A DNA stretch of 46,195 nucleotides from Actinomycetales bacterium (GTDB lineage Bacteria; Actinomycetota; Actinomycetes; Actinomycetales; Actinomycetaceae). The stretch covers positions 1 to 46,195 of the forward strand of contig JAATFD010000026.1 in the NCBI GenBank assembly GCA_015655375.1, in the 5' to 3' direction. Numbering within the stretch: the stretch's first letter is position 1; each line of letters opens with the position of its first letter. A program made the translations under genes and the position numbers. The notes below the pieces were generated by a model, which was not told the DNA's origin, did no database searches, and saw only the letters and a list, made by a program, of their open reading frames with translations. This document shows, one piece after another, positions 16,633 through 23,820 of the stretch.

Positions 16633-18636
16633 ATGGCTGGACTGATCCGACGTGAGGACATCGCGGCAGTGCGCGATGCCATTCGGATCGAGGACATCGT
16701 CGGTGAGCATGTCGCTTTGAAACCCGCTGGTGTCGGCTCCCTGAAGGGGCTGTGTCCTTTCCATGACGAGCGCACGCCGTCCTTCCACGTTCGCCCTCAG
16801 CTGGGCCTGTGGCACTGCTTCGGGTGCGGCGAGGGCGGAGACGTCATCAGCTTCGTCCAGAAGATCGATTCCTTGGGCTTCTCCGAGGCGGTCGAGATGC
16901 TCGCCCAGCGTGCGGGCATCGCCTTGCATTACGAAGAGGGTGGGCGCCAGGTCCACCACGAGGAGCCGGGTAAGCGCCAGCGTCTGCTCGACGCCCACCG
17001 TGTGGCCGAGGAGTACTACCAGACCCAGTTGGCGACCCCTGAGGCCCACCTCGGGCGTGCCTTCCTGGCAGGTCGGGGCTTCACCGAGGCCATGTCGCGT
17101 CACTTCGGCGTCGGCTACTCGCCGAAGGGGTGGGATCATCTGACCCGCCACCTGCGCTCCCGTGGTTTTACGGATGCTGAGATCCAAGCTGCCGGCCTCG
17201 CCTCGCAGGGCAGCCGTGGCCTCTATGACCGTTTTCGCGGCCGGCTGGTGTGGCCGATCCATGACATCACGGGGGCGACCGTCGGTTTCGGCGCGCGTCG
17301 CCTGGACGAGGACGAGGACTCCCCGAAATACCTCAACACCCCTGAGACTGCGATCTACAAGAAGTCCCAGGTCCTCTATGGGCTTGACCTCGCCAAGAAG
17401 GACATCACCCGCCAGCGCAAGATTGTCATCGTCGAGGGCTACACGGACGTCATGGCCGCCCACGTCGCCGGAGAGACGACGGCGGTGGCGACATGCGGAA
17501 CAGCCTTCGGGTCCGACCACGTTCGCATTGTGCGCCGTCTGCTGGGCGACGCCGCGGACCCGGCTGCGGGAGTCGTCCTGTCTTCGGGGCGGGCGCACGG
17601 CGGCGAGGTCATCTTCACTTTCGATGGCGATGCTGCTGGGCAGAAGGCAGCGCTGCGTGCGTTCAATGAGGATCAGAACTTTGCCTCGCAGACCTTTGTC
17701 GCCGTGGAGAAATCCGGCATGGACCCGTGTGAGCTGCGCATGGCGCGCGGCGATCAGGCGGTGCTCACATTGGTGGCGTCGCGTACGCCGCTGTTCCAGT
17801 TCGTCATCCGCTCCGTCCTCGCCCAGGTCGACCTCTCCACGGCGGAAGGCCGGGTCGCCGCCCTGCGGGGGGCGACCCCCGTGGTTGCGGGGATCAAGGA
17901 CCGGGCGTTGCGCCGCGAGTACACGCGGTCGCTGGCAGGGTGGCTGGGGATGGACGTGCCCGAGGTCTCCCGCGCTGTCCATCAGGCCGAACGAGGGCGC
18001 CGCACTGAGGGCGGGCCTGGATACGCCGGGCCGAGCATGCCCAGCGGCCGTGGGGGAATCGACGGCGCCGAGCCGATGGCCGGTGCCGGTCGGCCGGGTC
18101 CGGCGCGCAGGCGTGGCCCCGAGGACCCGGTGGCCCGAGTCGAGCGGTTGGCTCTGGAAGCGTTGCTGCAACGGCCGATGGACGTCATTGGGACGGGATT
18201 CGAGGACCTCGACGGTGCCTCCTTCACCGTCCCGTCCTATCGCGCGGTCCACGACGCAGTGCGCGCGGTCGGAGGGCTTGATGCCTTCGTCCAGGTGCTC
18301 GGTGCAGCGGAACAACGACTCGGTACAGGCGAGGAGGCAACGCGGGCGGCGACACGATCCTTCGACGAGGACGTGCGCGAGACCGCCGGCGAGATCGTCG
18401 GGGGGATCGTCACCGAGTTGGCGGTCGCGCCTCTGCCCCAGGACAAGGCCGACGGAATGCGCGCCTACTCACGCGGGGTGATGACGGCGCTCGTGCGGAT
18501 GGACCTCACCCGGCGCACCGGTGAGGTGCGAGCCCGGGTCCAACGCATGGATCCGGACGATCCTGAGTACCAGAAGACATTCCAGGAGCTCATCGGTCTG
18601 GAAGAACGGCGCCAGGCTCTGGCCCAGACCGAATAG
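16633..18636 (+). CDS. dnaG: DNA primase
   Basis: Synthesises RNA primers at the replication fork. The 667-residue protein has the N-terminal zinc finger (CPFH ... CFGC, residues about 40-64), the catalytic core with YDRFRGRLVWPIHD and GFGARRL, the TOPRIM acidic motifs VIVEGYTDVMA and FTFDGDAAGQKA, and a C-terminal helicase-binding region after a Gly/Pro-rich linker near residue 460-500. An insertion (ADPAAGVVLSSGRAHGGE) precedes the DGD motif, as often in Actinomyces. ATG 16633 gives the canonical MAGLIRREDI start behind a leaderless-type -10. Confidence 0.97.
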   Translation: MAGLIRREDIAAVRDAIRIEDIVGEHVALKPAGVGSLKGLCPFHDERTPSFHVRPQLGLWHCFGCGEGGDVISFVQKIDSLGFSEAVEMLAQRAGIALHYEEGGRQVHHEEPGKRQRLLDAHRVAEEYYQTQLATPEAHLGRAFLAGRGFTEAMSRHFGVGYSPKGWDHLTRHLRSRGFTDAEIQAAGLASQGSRGLYDRFRGRLVWPIHDITGATVGFGARRLDEDEDSPKYLNTPETAIYKKSQVLYGLDLAKKDITRQRKIVIVEGYTDVMAAHVAGETTAVATCGTAFGSDHVRIVRRLLGDAADPAAGVVLSSGRAHGGEVIFTFDGDAAGQKAALRAFNEDQNFASQTFVAVEKSGMDPCELRMARGDQAVLTLVASRTPLFQFVIRSVLAQVDLSTAEGRVAALRGATPVVAGIKDRALRREYTRSLAGWLGMDVPEVSRAVHQAERGRRTEGGPGYAGPSMPSGRGGIDGAEPMAGAGRPGPARRRGPEDPVARVERLALEALLQRPMDVIGTGFEDLDGASFTVPSYRAVHDAVRAVGGLDAFVQVLGAAEQRLGTGEEATRAATRSFDEDVRETAGEIVGGIVTELAVAPLPQDKADGMRAYSRGVMTALVRMDLTRRTGEVRARVQRMDPDDPEYQKTFQELIGLEERRQALAQTE

Positions 18637-18876
18637 TGAGTGGGTCGGAGCGGCACTCGGCTGCGTCTGCTCCAAACGGTGAGAGTCCATAGCTGCCCGA
18701 CGTCGCCGACTAGGTAGCCATTGCTGCTCATCGGTATCCGAACACGTCGGTGGAGGCCCGGAGAGCTGCGCTGACGAGGTCGTGAGTGCTGAAGGAAATC
18801 GATCGGTCGTTTCCTCTCTCGACGATTCGGGGGTCCCGCTCTTCGATCCGCGGAAGACCTCCTCGGGCTGATCGGC

Positions 18877-18882
18877 TATGGT
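18877..18882 (+). promoter_or_regulatory. -10 box of the cysteine leader transcript
   Basis: TATGGT fits TAnnnT and ends seven bases before a GTG at 18889, nearly the same geometry as the leaderless dgt and dnaG promoters. No convincing -35 is seen. Confidence 0.5.
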
Positions 18883-18888
18883 GGTCCT

Positions 18889-18918
18889 GTGACACTCTCT
18901 CTGTGTTGTTGTCGCTGA
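18889..18918 (+). CDS. putative leaderless cysteine-rich leader peptide (9 residues)
   Basis: GTG ACA CTC TCT CTG TGT TGT TGT CGC TGA encodes MTLSLCCCR: three consecutive cysteine codons in a nine-codon frame. The start codon sits at the expected +1 of the TATGGT -10 box, with no ribosome binding site, so translation would be leaderless. Leaderless polycysteine short ORFs are known in mycobacteria as cysteine-responsive attenuators ahead of sulfur genes. Here the gene downstream is a cystathionine beta-synthase/cysteine synthase-type enzyme. Ribosomes slowing at the Cys codons when Cys-tRNA is low would cover the 5' arm of the first hairpin and change the folding of the leader. Confidence 0.6.
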   Translation: MTLSLCCCR

Positions 18919-18993
18919 CCGTTGACGGCCAGCGCGCTCGGTTGCGCTGACTTGTCGGCTCCGTCCTGTGAGGCCTGACGGCCCCGGCGGAGC
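18914..18993 (+). promoter_or_regulatory. candidate attenuator hairpins downstream of the Cys leader peptide
   Basis: Hairpin A pairs GCTG 18914-18917 with CAGC 18930-18933 and CCG/CGG inside. Hairpin B pairs CAGCGC 18930-18935 with GCGCTG 18944-18949. A and B share 18930-18933, so only one can form. Hairpin C pairs GCTCCG 18958-18963 with CGGAGC 18988-18993 and GGCC/GGCC inside. None is followed by a U-run, so control would be Rho-dependent or act on mRNA folding. Confidence 0.4.
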
Positions 18994-19150
18994 ATTCCGG
19001 TCGGATCCGCGACACACAGATCTCGGACAGGCCCGAATTCCCATTCCTCGGGTGAGACGCCACCGTGTCCAGCACGTGCGGCGGTCACGTCGACCTTGTG
19101 AGGGACGCGATCCGGCCGGAACCCACCCACTGATCTTCTGGAGGATTCCC

Positions 19151-20350
19151 ATGCCCACGTCCACTCGTCTCACGTCCATGCCCGAGGCCGTCTCCGTATC
19201 CACCCAGGCAACCGCTGTCCCCACCGCCCCGCTGACCGCCATCGCGACGGACATCCACCGCACGATGACCTATGCCGACCACGTCACCGACCTGATCGGC
19301 GGTACACCCTTGGTCCGCCTGCATCACGTCACCGAGGGAATCGCTGCGACCGTCCTCATCAAGGTCGAGTACTTCAACCCCGGTGGGTCTGCGAAAGATC
19401 GCATTGCGTCGCGTATCATCGCGGACGCGGAGCGGAAAGGCCAGCTGCGCCCAGGCGGTACCATCGTGGAACCGACCTCGGGCAACACCGGCGTCGGCTT
19501 GGCCTTGGTCGCACAGAAACGCGGGTATCGCACCGTCTTCGTCGTGCCGGACAAGGTCGGTGCCGAGAAGCGCAACGTTCTACGGGCCTACGGCGCCCAG
19601 GTGGTCGTCGCTCCGACCGCAGTCACCCCGGACGACCCGCGCTCCTACTACTCGGTGGCCCGTTTGCTCGAGGCCTCGATTCCCGGTGCCTACGTTCCCA
19701 ACCAGTACGACAACCCGAACGGCCCGGCCGCGCACTATGCGACGACGGGACCGGAGATCTGGCGCGACACAGCGGGAAAGATCACTCATCTAGTCGCGGG
19801 CGTTGGCACCGGCGGAACGATCACGGGGACAGGTCGTTACCTCCACAACGTCTCCGACGGGCTCGTGCAGGTCATCGGTGCCGACCCCGAAGGCTCGATC
19901 TATTCGGGTGGCCCAGTCCACGGATATGACGTCGAGGGCGTGGGGGAGGACTTCTGGCCGGGCACCTACGACCGCACCGTGCCCGATCGAATCGAGCGGG
20001 TCGACGACGCCGAGTCCTTCGCCATGACTCGCCGTCTGGCGCGCGAGGAAGGCCTGCTGGTCGGCGGCTCTTCGGGAATGGCGGTCGCAGTGGCTCTACG
20101 CGTGGCGCGCGAGCTTTCCAAGGAGGCGGTGGTGGTCGTCATCGCTCCTGACTCCGGGCGAGGCTACCTCGACAAGATCTTCTCCGACGACTGGATGAGT
20201 GGGCATGGTCACTTTGGGTCGCATTCCATGGACGAGGTCGGAACAACAGCCGGGCCCGGGGACGTGTCCGGCAGCGCAGCGGCGGCCGGCGATCGTGTCG
20301 ACTGGATGCCGTGGGAGGCGCTTGACGCCTTGGAGTTGCCTCCCCAGTGA
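19151..20350 (+). CDS. cystathionine beta-synthase / cysteine synthase family enzyme without CBS domains
   Basis: PLP enzyme of fold type II joining serine or O-acetylserine with homocysteine or sulfide. The 399-residue protein has YADHVTDLIGGTPLVRL, the PLP lysine in NPGGSAKDRIA, EPTSGNTGVGLA and GTGGTITGTGRYL. Its central sequence (PDKVGAEKRNVLRAYGAQ, PNQYDNPNGPAAHY, VEGVGEDFWPGTYDR, GRGYLDKIFSDDWM) is much closer to actinobacterial cystathionine beta-synthase (Rv1077 type) than to CysK. After SDDWM, however, only about 55 unconserved residues follow instead of the two CBS domains. ATG 19151 follows GGAGG by six bases; the first 38 residues are an extension. It probably serves cysteine or cystathionine formation, with control by the upstream leader rather than by ligand binding. 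Confidence 0.85.
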   Translation: MPTSTRLTSMPEAVSVSTQATAVPTAPLTAIATDIHRTMTYADHVTDLIGGTPLVRLHHVTEGIAATVLIKVEYFNPGGSAKDRIASRIIADAERKGQLRPGGTIVEPTSGNTGVGLALVAQKRGYRTVFVVPDKVGAEKRNVLRAYGAQVVVAPTAVTPDDPRSYYSVARLLEASIPGAYVPNQYDNPNGPAAHYATTGPEIWRDTAGKITHLVAGVGTGGTITGTGRYLHNVSDGLVQVIGADPEGSIYSGGPVHGYDVEGVGEDFWPGTYDRTVPDRIERVDDAESFAMTRRLAREEGLLVGGSSGMAVAVALRVARELSKEAVVVVIAPDSGRGYLDKIFSDDWMSGHGHFGSHSMDEVGTTAGPGDVSGSAAAAGDRVDWMPWEALDALELPPQ

Positions 20351-20364
20351 GCTCCCGGTCGTGG

Positions 20365-20400
20365 CGGGCGGAACCTGAGCGTTGGTGCTCACCTCGCCCG
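20365..20400. terminator. imperfect bidirectional hairpin
   Basis: CGGGCG 20365-20370 pairs with CGCCCG 20395-20400, and GAGC 20377-20380 with GCTC 20387-20390. It lies between the convergent CBS-type gene and the NmrA-like gene, with no U-run. Confidence 0.4.
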
Positions 20401-20420
20401 TCCACCCCTGGCTGTCGTTT

Positions 20421-21074
20421 TCAGTCGTCGAGGATGTTGAGCGCGACTGCGATCGGAACGTCGCCGGAGTTGAAGCGGATCGTCCGATGGACCGTCGCAG
20501 GCTCGTCGAGGGCGAGCACGATCGTCTGGGCGACGTCCGCCCGATCGACAGACGTTGATTGTGTGGCGTCGACGTCGATGAGGCCGGTCGGCGCGCCCAG
20601 GGTCAACGCGCTCGGCGCGAGGATCGTCCAGTCCAGATCGGTATTGCGCAGATAGACATCGGCGGCGGCCTTCGCCTCGGCGTAGGAAAAGAACGGATCG
20701 TCCTCGGGAACTCCGTGGTCCGGTCCTGCGCCGAAGTAGGACACCATGAGGAACCGAGTGATCCCGACGTGGGTGGTGGCGTTGATCGTGCGGATCGCTG
20801 CGTCGCGATCGACCGCATAGGTGCGGGCTGCGTCTCCGCCGCCGGCTCCCGCCGACCAGATGACCGCGTCGTGGCCCGCGAGCAGAGAACCGATCTCGGC
20901 CTCGTCCAGGGCCTCCAGGTCGGCGACGATGGGCGTCGCGCCGGCGCGTTCGACGTCTGACGCCTGTGCAGGATTGCGGATGATGGCGCTGACGCCGTAG
21001 CCGGACTCGACGAGCGAGGGCTCGGCGAGAAGGGCGACCTTTCCGTGTCCCCCGATGAGTGCAACGCGTGGCAT
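20421..21074 (-). CDS. NAD(P)-binding oxidoreductase, atypical SDR / NmrA-like
   Basis: A 217-residue cytoplasmic protein with an N-terminal Rossmann motif GGHGKVA (usual GATGxxG/GGHGxxG) and the family sequence YAEAKAAADVYLRNTDLDWTILAPSALT, where YxxxK and the LDWTILRP motif mark atypical SDRs of the YwnB/BVR-B type. Known members are NAD(P)H-dependent reductases or redox sensors; the substrate is unknown here. ATG 21074 has AAGGAG seven bases upstream. It stands alone between the CBS-type gene (convergent) and the 962-base gap, transcribed away from the met operon. Confidence 0.85.
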   Translation of the reverse strand: MPRVALIGGHGKVALLAEPSLVESGYGVSAIIRNPAQASDVERAGATPIVADLEALDEAEIGSLLAGHDAVIWSAGAGGGDAARTYAVDRDAAIRTINATTHVGITRFLMVSYFGAGPDHGVPEDDPFFSYAEAKAAADVYLRNTDLDWTILAPSALTLGAPTGLIDVDATQSTSVDRADVAQTIVLALDEPATVHRTIRFNSGDVPIAVALNILDD

Positions 21075-21389
21075 GAGTGGCTCCTTCGACTCCAAGCGGT
21101 TGATACCCGTCCAACGCTACGGCCTGGGACGACGCCCGGCGCGCGGTGAGCCCGTTCCAGTCCTCGCCCGTAGTCACGGCCTCACGCAGCTGGACGCGGG
21201 GTCCCGTCCGCAGCGGGGAATACCGGTAGATCCGCGCGTCCACCGCGATGGTGAGGATCGTCCTCGCGGATGGCGAGTCGTTCGGTCATGACGGTACGAG
21301 CCGGAAGCCGATGCCGTTCGCGCGGTGTCACCGCGTGACGGGCTGCCTCGGCCCACCAGCGCTGACGTGATCCCATGAGAGGAGGCCAG

Positions 21390-21440
21390 ATGACTGCCCT
21401 CGCGCTCATTCCTGCCCTTCCTTTCGTTCGGGCACTCTAA
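21390..21440 (+). CDS. candidate 16-residue peptide behind a strong ribosome binding site
   Basis: ATG 21390 is preceded by GAGAGGAGG with good spacing and encodes MTALALIPALPFVRAL before TAA. A 7-bp hairpin (CCGCCTC 21444-21450 with GAGGCGG 21471-21477) begins three bases after the stop. It has no obvious regulatory amino-acid run. It could be a leader peptide or chance. Confidence 0.25.
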   Translation: MTALALIPALPFVRAL

Positions 21441-21500
21441 ACTCCGCCTCAGACACGCTGCACCGCTGCCGAGGCGGGACGCTCCTTTTCAGGAGATCTC

Positions 21501-21563
21501 ATGGATTCCCCCCATGGACTGGGATGCCATTGCTCTGTCTTTTTCCCAGACCGCCGATCTTGA
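21501..21563 (+). CDS. candidate 20-residue peptide with two cysteines
   Basis: ATG 21501 follows AGGAG by five bases and encodes MDSPHGLGCHCSVFFPDRRS. The ribosome binding site is the 3' arm of a small hairpin (CTCCT 21482-21486 with AGGAG 21491-21495). The CxC pair and position ahead of a methionine operon make a leader role thinkable, but evidence is weak. Confidence 0.2.
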   Translation: MDSPHGLGCHCSVFFPDRRS

Positions 21564-22036
21564 CGCTGACCAGCGCTGGTCGACATGGGAGCAGACCGCC
21601 TGCGAGTCCGACACCATGGGCGCGCCCCAGCGTCCGACCTCGTTCGGATGTGCCATCGCCTGCGAAGAGACACTGCCATATGGAGGCGAGGAAAAGCACG
21701 ACCGCGAGGAGCGCATCAACCTGGATCTCTGCACGGGGACGGTCGGGCCGTTGCCATCCGATGTCCTCGATTCCTCCTCGCACACGCGCACACGTCATGA
21801 GAGCGTCGTCGCCGGGCGACCTGTCGCCTCCGTCTCCAGGGGGAGAAGAGCCGGACGGTCTTTCCCTTTTGCCCCCGACCTGTGAGCTGGAAGTCATCGT
21901 GTTACACAGTCTCGGATCGCGCAGTTTTCCTGTGCATGGCAAACCCAAGACCGACACTTTCCCATGCCAGTGCGTTCTCATCTGAGAGGACGTCGAGTCG
22001 GGCGGACACGTCACTCGTGACACGGAGGAGAAGTTC

Positions 22037-22915
22037 ATGCGAGCAATTCGACGGATCGGACGAGTGAGCCTCCTCCTTGTTGCAGGAGCTCTCGGCCTCG
22101 GTGCGTGCTCAGGGTCGACATCTGGCGGTGCCACTCAAGCAGGGACGTCTTCCGATGCAGACTCATCGGCCGATTCATTGACGACAATCACCGTCGGATT
22201 CAATTCTGGTCCCTACGAGCAGATGTTCACCGAGGGGATCGAACCCATTCTCGAATCTGAGGGCTACACGCTGAAGACCCAGTCCTTCTCCGACGGGATC
22301 CAGGTCAACCAAGCGCTCAATGATGGCGAGATCCAAGCCAATATCATGCAACACCAGGTGTACCTCGACTACGTCAATCAGCAGCGCGGATTCTCGAATG
22401 TCTCCCTCGTTCAAGTACCCGGACCTCCGATGGGCCTCTTCGCGGGGAAGTCCGATTCGCCGGAGCCTGCCGATGGCGCGTCGGTTGCTCTCCCGAACGA
22501 GCCGTCGAATCTTTACCGCGCTTTGCTCCTTCTCCAGGACGCAGGATGGATCACGGTCTCAGAGTCAATCGATTCCGGGACGGCTTCTCTCAACGACGTC
22601 ACTTCCAACCCGCACGATCTCAAGCTGACTCTGTTGGAGAACTCCCAAGCTGTGCGTTCTCTTGAGGACCTTGACTATGCCGTCGTCCAGGGCAATTTCG
22701 TTGTGTCTGCAGGACTCGATCTGACCTCCGCCATCAAGTTGGAGGATCTCCAGGATGAATTCTCAGTGATCGTCGCAGTGGCGGATGGCAACACCGAAAC
22801 TGCGTGGGCAAAAGCGATTGTTGAGGCTTACCAGTCGCAAGAATTTGCCGACTACATCCATTCCAATTCACAGTACGACGGGTACCACTTGCCCTCTTAC
22901 ATGGACAGCGAGTGA
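22037..22915 (+). CDS. metQ: methionine ABC transporter substrate-binding lipoprotein (first copy)
   Basis: NlpA/MetQ family lipoprotein that delivers methionine to the MetNI importer. The 292-residue protein has a signal peptide with lipobox LGAC (cleavage before Cys24), a Ser/Ala-rich linker, then the MetQ fold: ITVGFNSGPYEQM, QANIMQHQVYLDYVNQQRG, the binding-site region VALPNEPSNLYRALLLLQDAGWI and YAVVQGNFVVSAGLDL. ATG 22037 follows CGGAGGAG. It opens the operon and is highly similar to the next gene, of equal length; codon use is slightly less GC-rich here than in the second copy. Confidence 0.93.
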   Translation: MRAIRRIGRVSLLLVAGALGLGACSGSTSGGATQAGTSSDADSSADSLTTITVGFNSGPYEQMFTEGIEPILESEGYTLKTQSFSDGIQVNQALNDGEIQANIMQHQVYLDYVNQQRGFSNVSLVQVPGPPMGLFAGKSDSPEPADGASVALPNEPSNLYRALLLLQDAGWITVSESIDSGTASLNDVTSNPHDLKLTLLENSQAVRSLEDLDYAVVQGNFVVSAGLDLTSAIKLEDLQDEFSVIVAVADGNTETAWAKAIVEAYQSQEFADYIHSNSQYDGYHLPSYMDSE

Positions 22916-22941
22916 CCGATGCAACCGACCGGAGAGACATC

Positions 22942-23820
22942 ATGTCATCCACTCATTCCATTCGCCACGCAGTAGTGAGCGTGGTCGCTGCGATCTCAGC
23001 CTTCGCCCTCGTCGGCTGCTCGACAGGGGGATCCTCGTCCGCTCAGTCATCGGGTGCGAGTGCGGATCCGTCGACCACGACGATCACTGTTGGCTTCACC
23101 GCAGGTCCCTATGAGGACGAGTGGAACGATGCGATCGCGCCTCAGCTGGAAAAGAAAGGCTACACGGTCAAGACGCAATCCTTCACCGATTACATCCAGG
23201 CCGACGCCGCCCTCGCTGAGGGATCGATTCAGGCGAACATCATTCAGCACACGACGTACCTCGATTATGTCAATGGCCAACGCGGATTCTCCAATGAGCC
23301 GCTCGTCCAGGTGCCTGGCCCGCCGATGGGTCTCTTCGCCGGGAAGTCATCATCGCTGGATGTGGCGGACGGGGCAAGTGTGGCCGTCCCCTCCGATCCA
23401 TCGAACCTCTATCGGGCGCTCCTGCTGTTGCAGAAGGCTGGGTGGATCACGGTCTCGGACACCATTGATTCGGGAACGGCATCACTCAATGACATCACGG
23501 CGAACCCGCACAACCTGTCCATCACCCTGATGGATTCCTCCCAGGGAATCAGGGCTCTGCAGGATCTCGATTATGGCGTGGTGCAGGGGAACTTCGCGGT
23601 CTCCGCAGGCCTGGATCTGACTTCGGCACTGTCCCTGGAGACACTGGAGGATCGATTCAAAGTGGTTGTTGCCGTGGGACAGGACCAGAGCTCGACCCAA
23701 TGGGCGACGGACATTGTCGAGGCGTATCACTCGTCCGAGTTCACGGACTACATTCGCTCGGACGATCGCTACAAGGGCTACGATCTCCCCGACTATTTCG
23801 GTGCGGAGTCGGGTCAGTGA
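22942..23820 (+). CDS. metQ: methionine ABC transporter substrate-binding lipoprotein (second copy)
   Basis: Tandem paralogue of the preceding gene, also 292 residues, with lipobox LVGC and the same order of conserved blocks (ITVGFTAGPYEDEW, QANIIQHTTYLDYVNGQRGFSN, VPGPPMGLFAGKSS, VPSDPSNLYRALLLLQKAGWI, YGVVQGNFAVSAGLDL). ATG 22942 was preferred over GTG 22912 because GGAGAG lies just upstream and it gives a normal signal peptide. Two receptors for one permease may differ in ligand (for example L- and D-methionine, sulfoxide or peptide forms); sequence does not say which. Confidence 0.92.
   Translation: MSSTHSIRHAVVSVVAAISAFALVGCSTGGSSSAQSSGASADPSTTTITVGFTAGPYEDEWNDAIAPQLEKKGYTVKTQSFTDYIQADAALAEGSIQANIIQHTTYLDYVNGQRGFSNEPLVQVPGPPMGLFAGKSSSLDVADGASVAVPSDPSNLYRALLLLQKAGWITVSDTIDSGTASLNDITANPHNLSITLMDSSQGIRALQDLDYGVVQGNFAVSAGLDLTSALSLETLEDRFKVVVAVGQDQSSTQWATDIVEAYHSSEFTDYIRSDDRYKGYDLPDYFGAESGQ

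Follow-up and report, generated by a model that had tools for sequence, protein, structure and literature searches.

A candidate cysteine-responsive leader peptide, presumed leaderless, in front of a cystathionine beta-synthase-type gene in Actinomycetaceae and its counterparts in other Actinobacteria

In the genome of a bacterium of the family Actinomycetaceae, a gene for a cystathionine beta-synthase (CBS)-type enzyme is preceded by a nine-codon frame with three consecutive cysteine codons, and it is highly probable that the two together form a cysteine-responsive leader-peptide attenuator. We take this view because the frame, its cysteine run, its distance from the promoter box and its stop codon are conserved elsewhere, the signal is specific for cysteine among the amino acids, all carriers placed in the enzyme tree fall on the same side of it, the folds of the bifidobacterial and Microbacteriaceae leaders agree with it, and the gene downstream is a sulfur gene. 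The analysis started from a sequence-only reading of the whole 46,195-nucleotide stretch (the window), which had proposed cysteine-responsive control at this place and is very probably right on function. To that reading our analysis adds the size of the cbs group and its range on the tree, the fixed leaderless geometry, the preference for TGT codons and a covarying helix in bifidobacteria.

The leader frame and the gene behind it

A -10-type box, TATGGT, lies at 18877-18882 on the plus strand and is also the commonest box among the 48 conserved leaders described below (8/48). The frame MTLSLCCCR-stop follows on the same strand at 18889-18918, with the codons GTG ACA CTC TCT CTG TGT TGT TGT CGC TGA. 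Box, frame, ribosome binding site and CBS-type gene are read directly in the sequence, as had been claimed; the box was said to lie seven bases before the frame, and its presence and closeness are correct, the intervening bases (GGTCCT) being six. The GTG stands at the predicted +1, and from the spacing of the -10 box we infer that transcription starts at or next to position 18889. The frame is thus presumed to be leaderless, on the grounds of its sequence and of the geometry that it shares with loci elsewhere. Any -35 element must be weak, because a search of 18640-19160 gave no two-hexamer promoter of the sigma-70 type. The three TGT codons (18904-18912, plus strand) are the presumed sensor, in view of the TGT bias of the 48 leaders; they stand close to the stop (TGT TGT TGT CGC TGA), and a frame with adjacent cysteine codons in this geometry occurs in 48 of 212 upstream regions.

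The leader RNA between the peptide stop and the ribosome binding site occupies 18919-19139 on the plus strand and is followed by the Shine-Dalgarno sequence GGAGGA (19140-19145, plus strand), for which local pairing with bases in 19122-19129 is predicted; 232 bases separate the peptide stop from the ATG at 19151. No intrinsic terminator was found in 18640-19160, so that the locus does not have the form of a classical transcription attenuator. No Rfam family, and hence no riboswitch or other catalogued cis-regulatory RNA, reached its gathering score in 18600-22100; the sole match there was a sub-threshold SECIS_2 inside the gene (23.8 bits against 70). The sequence TGTTGTTGT has 11 copies on both strands of the 2.77 Mb genome, and among the ten loci inspected by eye, with L271 left out, a short cysteine frame behind a TANNNT box was seen at the window copy only.

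The gene itself is a 399-codon frame on the plus strand, from the ATG at 19151 to 20350, recognised by PF00291, by TIGR01137 and by alignment with loci L004 and L005. TIGR01137 (cystathionine beta-synthase) was the best NCBIfam model, at 488.7 bits slightly below the cut-off of 510.25, and the match spans model positions 2-324 of 457. In the alignment the enzyme consists of the catalytic part without the C-terminal CBS-domain pair that is present in L004 and L005, and, unlike both, it has a 38-residue N-terminal extension. Judged by the TIGR01137 match, the predicted role of the gene belongs to cysteine/homocysteine sulfur transfer. Elsewhere in the genome there are five strong matches to the transsulfuration family PF01053.

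Distribution of the leader and the enzyme tree

We surveyed 450 bases upstream of 212 CBS-type genes. Three of these genes are those of the window, L004 and L005; a further 80 belong to named loci, of which there were at least 594 and the best 80 were taken, and 129 belong to other loci of the order. In the order search 175 of 396 genomes passed E 1e-110 with a CBS-type match, and from these we examined 130 upstream regions, the 129 and that of the window. Two groups of cysK-type loci, 27 and 20 in number (L006-L032 and L142-L161), were excluded from the cbs counts. A region was scored positive if it had TANNNT, 5-8 bases, ATG or GTG and a frame of at most 30 codons with adjacent cysteines. 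Of the 212 real regions 48 satisfied this rule, whereas among the controls a single one of 4240 dinucleotide shuffles did so and none of the 212 reverse complements, the real stretches being 30 bases longer than the controls; the claim that such a frame is unlikely to arise by chance thus holds. An earlier and looser pass, in which TTG starts were allowed and cysK-type loci were included, gave 30/139 and is superseded by this count. The two locus sets may overlap (L132 is almost the same as L036, and the contigs that carry L085 and L261 have the same length), and the 48 leaders should not be taken as a number of independent species.

The 48 leaders share a narrow geometry. The spacer between box and start codon is six bases in 24 and seven in the other 24, though 5 to 8 were allowed. 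When each of the 20 amino acids was considered in doubled form, cysteine gave 48/212 and the runner-up, arginine, 10/212, only 2 of these in frames free of doubled cysteine. The cysteine codons of the leaders comprise 137 TGT and 12 TGC (149 in total), compared with 84 TGT and 241 TGC in the ten leader-bearing named loci, where all stretches without a stop over 350 amino acids or more were counted in all six frames. The chains have 7-14 residues and the last cysteine run two to four; the residue after this run is arginine in 40 of the 48 and histidine in 1, while in the other 7 the stop comes at once, and the stop is TGA in 33, TAA in 9 and TAG in 6. The rest of the peptide drifts while the cysteine run stays (MTLSL, MSSVVL, MTFFS and VLTCR, for example). 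The bifidobacterial leaders resemble MTFFSCCCR-stop and those of Microbacteriaceae VLTCRCCR-stop, with the same spacing, and the two orthologues in the family of the window have MSSVVLLCC-stop and MSSVVRLCCC-stop, each seven bases after TACAGT. Conservation of the cysteine codons, the -10 spacing and the stop among relatives, proposed as a check on the sequence-only reading, is therefore seen in two family orthologues, in bifidobacteria and in Microbacteriaceae. In two groups of leaders an extra early cysteine codon is present, as if there were two stall points: those of the form MVLCTRLCCC (L119, L124, L125 and L128) and those of the form VLTCRCCR (L035, L113, L116, L121, L129, L130 and L138).

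Among the families of the order, the leader was found in 3/3 rows of the window's own family (f1), 11/11 of f3, 19/25 of f19, 4/6 of f13, 1/7 of f8 and 0/80 of the others; six of the 25 f19 rows are without it. From the leaders and the tree neighbours, f3 appears to be Bifidobacteriaceae-like and f19 Microbacteriaceae-like; two f3 rows stand among the Bifidobacterium rows in the tree. The named loci gave 10/80, consisting of all five Bifidobacterium, two Microbacterium, two Agromyces and one Promicromonospora, so that the bifidobacterial rows are positive without exception (16/16, five Bifidobacterium and 11 of f3). Negative among the 80 were other Microbacteriaceae, including one Microbacterium (L039), and all Streptomyces, Nocardia, mycobacterial and Arthrobacter loci.

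A maximum-likelihood tree was built from 112 enzyme rows (100 upstream-only loci were left out); 29 of the 45 rows on one side (support 96/86) carry the leader, and none of the 67 rows on the other. The carrier side thus also contains 16 rows without a leader. The leader state changes 7 times on this tree, against 26.0 times in shuffles, and none of 500 shuffles was as low. The window enzyme groups, on a long branch, with the Bifidobacterium/Microbacterium part of the tree (100/99), apart from L004 and L005. In the family search, which covered 121 genomes, matches of about 70% identity were found besides the window only in G022 and G107 among the matches listed; the other matches listed had 27-53% identity, mostly 37-47%, and are cysK-type by our reading. 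At E 1e-110 a CBS-type gene was absent from all six other genomes of the genus. The tree grouping, together with this absence from the congeners, hints that gene and leader were transferred together into the species of the window. We do not treat horizontal transfer as established: a tree in which the three family members form one clade was not rejected (p 0.15), and the window row has a long branch. On a broader scale it is possible, if somewhat short of probable, that the leader and its helix between the cysteine codons and a downstream segment are an old cassette that travels with the gene in a single lineage of cbs, that of Bifidobacteriaceae, Microbacteriaceae and their neighbours, that the species of the window gained both together, and that TGT was selected over the TGC usual in the hosts, either to slow decoding or to permit the helix. 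A separate peculiarity of the tree is the cbs of L092, recorded as Sporosarcina beigongshangi, which falls among Micrococcaceae; contamination or mislabelling of the record could account for this, and so could transfer of the gene.

Other cysteine-rich frames were seen during the survey. In the same genome, upstream of a cysK-type gene (L142, on G000:C18), a second candidate leaderless cysteine leader lies at locus positions 493-585: TAGTCT, six bases, GTG and then VSTQILTEGGPTVGAHCVGTSVARCCPFCL-stop, with 208 bases between it and the cysK-type stretch that was matched. It is followed by a 10-base GGGCGAATGG/CCATTCGCCC hairpin, and the whole fold is no better than shuffles (z 0.12). More than one gene of this genome may be under cysteine control. 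In other genera of the family, cysK-type genes have upstream frames that end in cysteine clusters, such as MMHATRRPSFCMCCLCL-stop (L007, L020, L021, L023, L025, L027, L028, L151, L156, L158 and L159), and several of these stand behind a Shine-Dalgarno-like GGAGG or GGAAAGGA. A loose rule was satisfied by 21 of 47 cysK-type upstream regions, a count made without a chance control, and to the eye the frames of five congeners resemble out-of-frame readings of an upstream gene. Further along the window, a short frame at 21899-21985 ending in PCQCVLI-stop precedes two metQ-type lipoprotein genes, with 51 bases between it and the first; the region 22037-23820 holds these two adjacent genes for NlpA/MetQ-type substrate-binding lipoproteins, followed by metN- and metI-type genes and an aminotransferase. 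A leader before metNIQ of S. lividans, methionine-dependent according to the authors, also ends in a cysteine-rich stretch in the passages available to us (PMC8079986).

Proposed mechanism and its alternatives

Leaderless initiation is established in actinobacteria, and ribosomes would here begin on the leaderless 5' end without a Shine-Dalgarno sequence. If Cys-tRNA were ample, the nine codons would be read at once and the ribosome released, and the cysteine codons would then be free to pair with a downstream anti-Cys segment, which is predicted in the window. If Cys-tRNA were scarce, the ribosome would wait on TGT-TGT-TGT, the helix would be kept open and the enzyme would be made. Both the stalling and the direction of the response, upward when cysteine is short, are what we infer from this arrangement. 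The pairing step draws its support from conservation and covariation in bifidobacteria.

In the window, the predicted anti-Cys segment (19009-19020, plus strand, core GACACACAG) pairs with 18900-18912 in the free leader, with probabilities of about 0.97 for most pairs and lower values at both ends and at a bulge, and the same pairing is found in the minimum-energy fold. It is no better than chance (p 0.32; z -0.71 for the whole leader), because a leader of this length should offer an equally good partner by chance alone. In the bifidobacterial leaders, a GCAYAA element occurs downstream of the stop in 16/16, and the bases after it can pair with four to six of the six bases that precede the first cysteine codon; the arms covary, as in TCTCA with TGAGA or ATTTCC with GGAAAT. 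There are nine distinct combinations of arms, on which the covariation scored 46/54 (p 0.0024, against a permutation mean of 40.9), with the pairing offset fitted beforehand to each leader's own arm, which favours the outcome; it scored 51/60 when the choice of offset was repeated in each permutation (mean 47.2, p 0.0012) and 47/60 with one fixed offset (mean 42.1, p 0.009), all three comparisons being blind to kinship. The bifidobacterial consensus fold has the cysteine codons in its 5' arm, and none of 60 column shuffles, again blind to kinship, attained its energy. In nine Microbacteriaceae leaders, cut at the start codon, the stretch of the cysteine codons folds onto a downstream CGACNNCCCNGNCAG-like segment, and a G+C-rich hairpin lies between this segment and the ribosome binding site; none of 60 shuffles, likewise kinship-blind, attained this fold. 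The consensus fold of f13 with L004 and L005 was not significant, since 8 of 60 column shuffles did as well. L096, for which our rule gave no start, was omitted from the structure scans. Among these scans, the search for duplexes between the cysteine codons and the downstream leader was weak overall (6/47 at p <= 0.05, 36/47 at p <= 0.5, mean z -0.63), and the bifidobacterial helix stood out by alignment and covariation only.

How the helix would act on the gene is a further question. Release of the ribosome binding site is reportedly the output in mycobacteria (Canestrari et al., 2020), and by that precedent we lean towards it here, with Rho-dependent termination nearly as likely. When a stalled ribosome was represented by a mask, the cost of opening the ribosome binding site of the window fell by 3.9 kcal/mol, compared with 1.2 in shuffled leaders (p 0.066); with a longer 3' end, masking left the GGAGGA of the window paired with 19122-19129 either way, the 3.9 kcal/mol scan having used a shorter 3' end and another measure. 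The fall was strong at three other loci, L065 (18.5 kcal/mol), L216 (12.1) and L004 (5.4). Sequestration of the ribosome binding site found no support as a general rule, since only 4 of 47 transcripts (L065, L216, L108 and L004) reached p <= 0.05 against shuffled leaders, with a mean z of 0.28; in 11 of the 47, masking raised the opening cost by more than 0.5 kcal/mol.

The same sensor could have a transcriptional output, and this is a serious possibility to which we give slightly less than even chances. Rho sites are C-rich and G-poor. Quick translation of the leader would then leave naked C-rich RNA to be bound by Rho, with termination before the gene, and a stalled ribosome would prevent this. 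It would suit such an output that 18640-19160 has no intrinsic terminator and that leader-bearing loci have much C and little G in the tract from the frame to the ribosome binding site: the mean of C minus G is +0.150 in 47 regions with the leader and -0.004 in 164 without, and within f19 +0.194 in 19 with and 0.000 in six without, although the lengths measured differed between the sets and a Rho site cannot be recognised by composition alone. Against it, the leader of the window is hardly skewed (C 0.358, G 0.317). As for earlier work, Rho has been proposed for cysteine leaders by Seliverstov et al. in 2005, a prediction that is rather weak in their own words in the section concerned (PMC1262725), and the mycobacterial case is termed translation attenuation in the relevant passage of PMC13236596, which also speaks against Rho. 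The set of 48 leaders offers comparative material for testing release of the ribosome binding site against Rho termination.

A different sensor is conceivable, in which the nascent cysteine-rich chain itself halts the ribosome as an arrest peptide or thiol sensor, for example under oxidation or metal stress. The position of the cysteine run beside the stop, with arginine after it in 40 of 48 leaders, would suit such a peptide; however, chains of 7-14 residues that carry two to four cysteines and are otherwise unconserved fit a reading of codons better than an action of the chain in the exit tunnel, and we regard arrest by the peptide as unlikely. That the frame with its three cysteine codons is a mere accident is hardly credible: short frames are common, and the window has no close relative for comparison because the six other congeners have no CBS-type gene at E 1e-110, but chance is contradicted by the rarity of such frames in the shuffles and reverse complements, by the confinement of the carriers to one side of the tree and by the spacer of six or seven bases in all 48. 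The attenuator that senses cysteine through its codons remains our preferred reading, and the locus also indicates that promoter spacing and codon content, taken together, can reveal regulatory frames of very small size.

Comparison with known systems

Leader peptides with cysteine runs were described by Seliverstov et al. in 2005 before the cys operons of mycobacteria and P. acnes and before Bifidobacterium longum cbs; in the passages available to us, they report no terminators there and suggest Rho weakly (PMC1262725). The novelty of a cysteine-run leader before cbs is therefore less than the sequence-only reading had supposed. The window leader resembles their candidates, so far as the available text describes them, in being a short frame with a cysteine run near its stop, before cbs and without a terminator hairpin. 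That text names one cbs case and does not use the word leaderless, and although its genome list includes Actinomyces naeslundii, section 6 reports no leader there (PMC1262725). What goes beyond those candidates is the wide distribution before cbs, the fixed -10 spacing and the covarying helix. In the literature searched, which was that outside subscription journals, no report of a leaderless cbs leader was found.

Leaderless polycysteine short frames in mycobacteria are reportedly cysteine-responsive attenuators (Canestrari et al., 2020). Shell et al. in 2015 described leaderless cysteine-rich mycobacterial frames before cysA2, Rv0485 and nirA, with ribosome occupancy at the cysA2 locus, according to the passages available (PMC4633059), and cysteine-responsive attenuation by such frames is cited in the corresponding passages of PMC9094748, PMC9031893 and PMC13236596. 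The window leader is like them in that the start codon lies at the transcript start (here a predicted one), the cysteine cluster is near the stop and a sulfur gene follows. The gene differs, the mycobacterial leaders preceding cysA2, Rv0485, nirA and others and that of the window preceding cbs; no such leader was found at the mycobacterial cbs genes L091, L093 and L110 or at the adjoining record L080. The evidence also differs, since the mycobacterial frames come from mapped transcript starts, with footprints at cysA2, as far as that source goes (PMC4633059), and the frame of the window is known from its sequence. Our results extend cysteine-sensing leaderless leaders, as candidates, from mycobacteria and one bifidobacterial cbs to a whole cbs lineage. 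Unlike the leaders of the trp, his and leu operons, the window has no U-tailed terminator and its peptide presumably starts without a Shine-Dalgarno sequence; like them, it places codons for the end product in a leader peptide, where the position of the ribosome would sense the charged tRNA.
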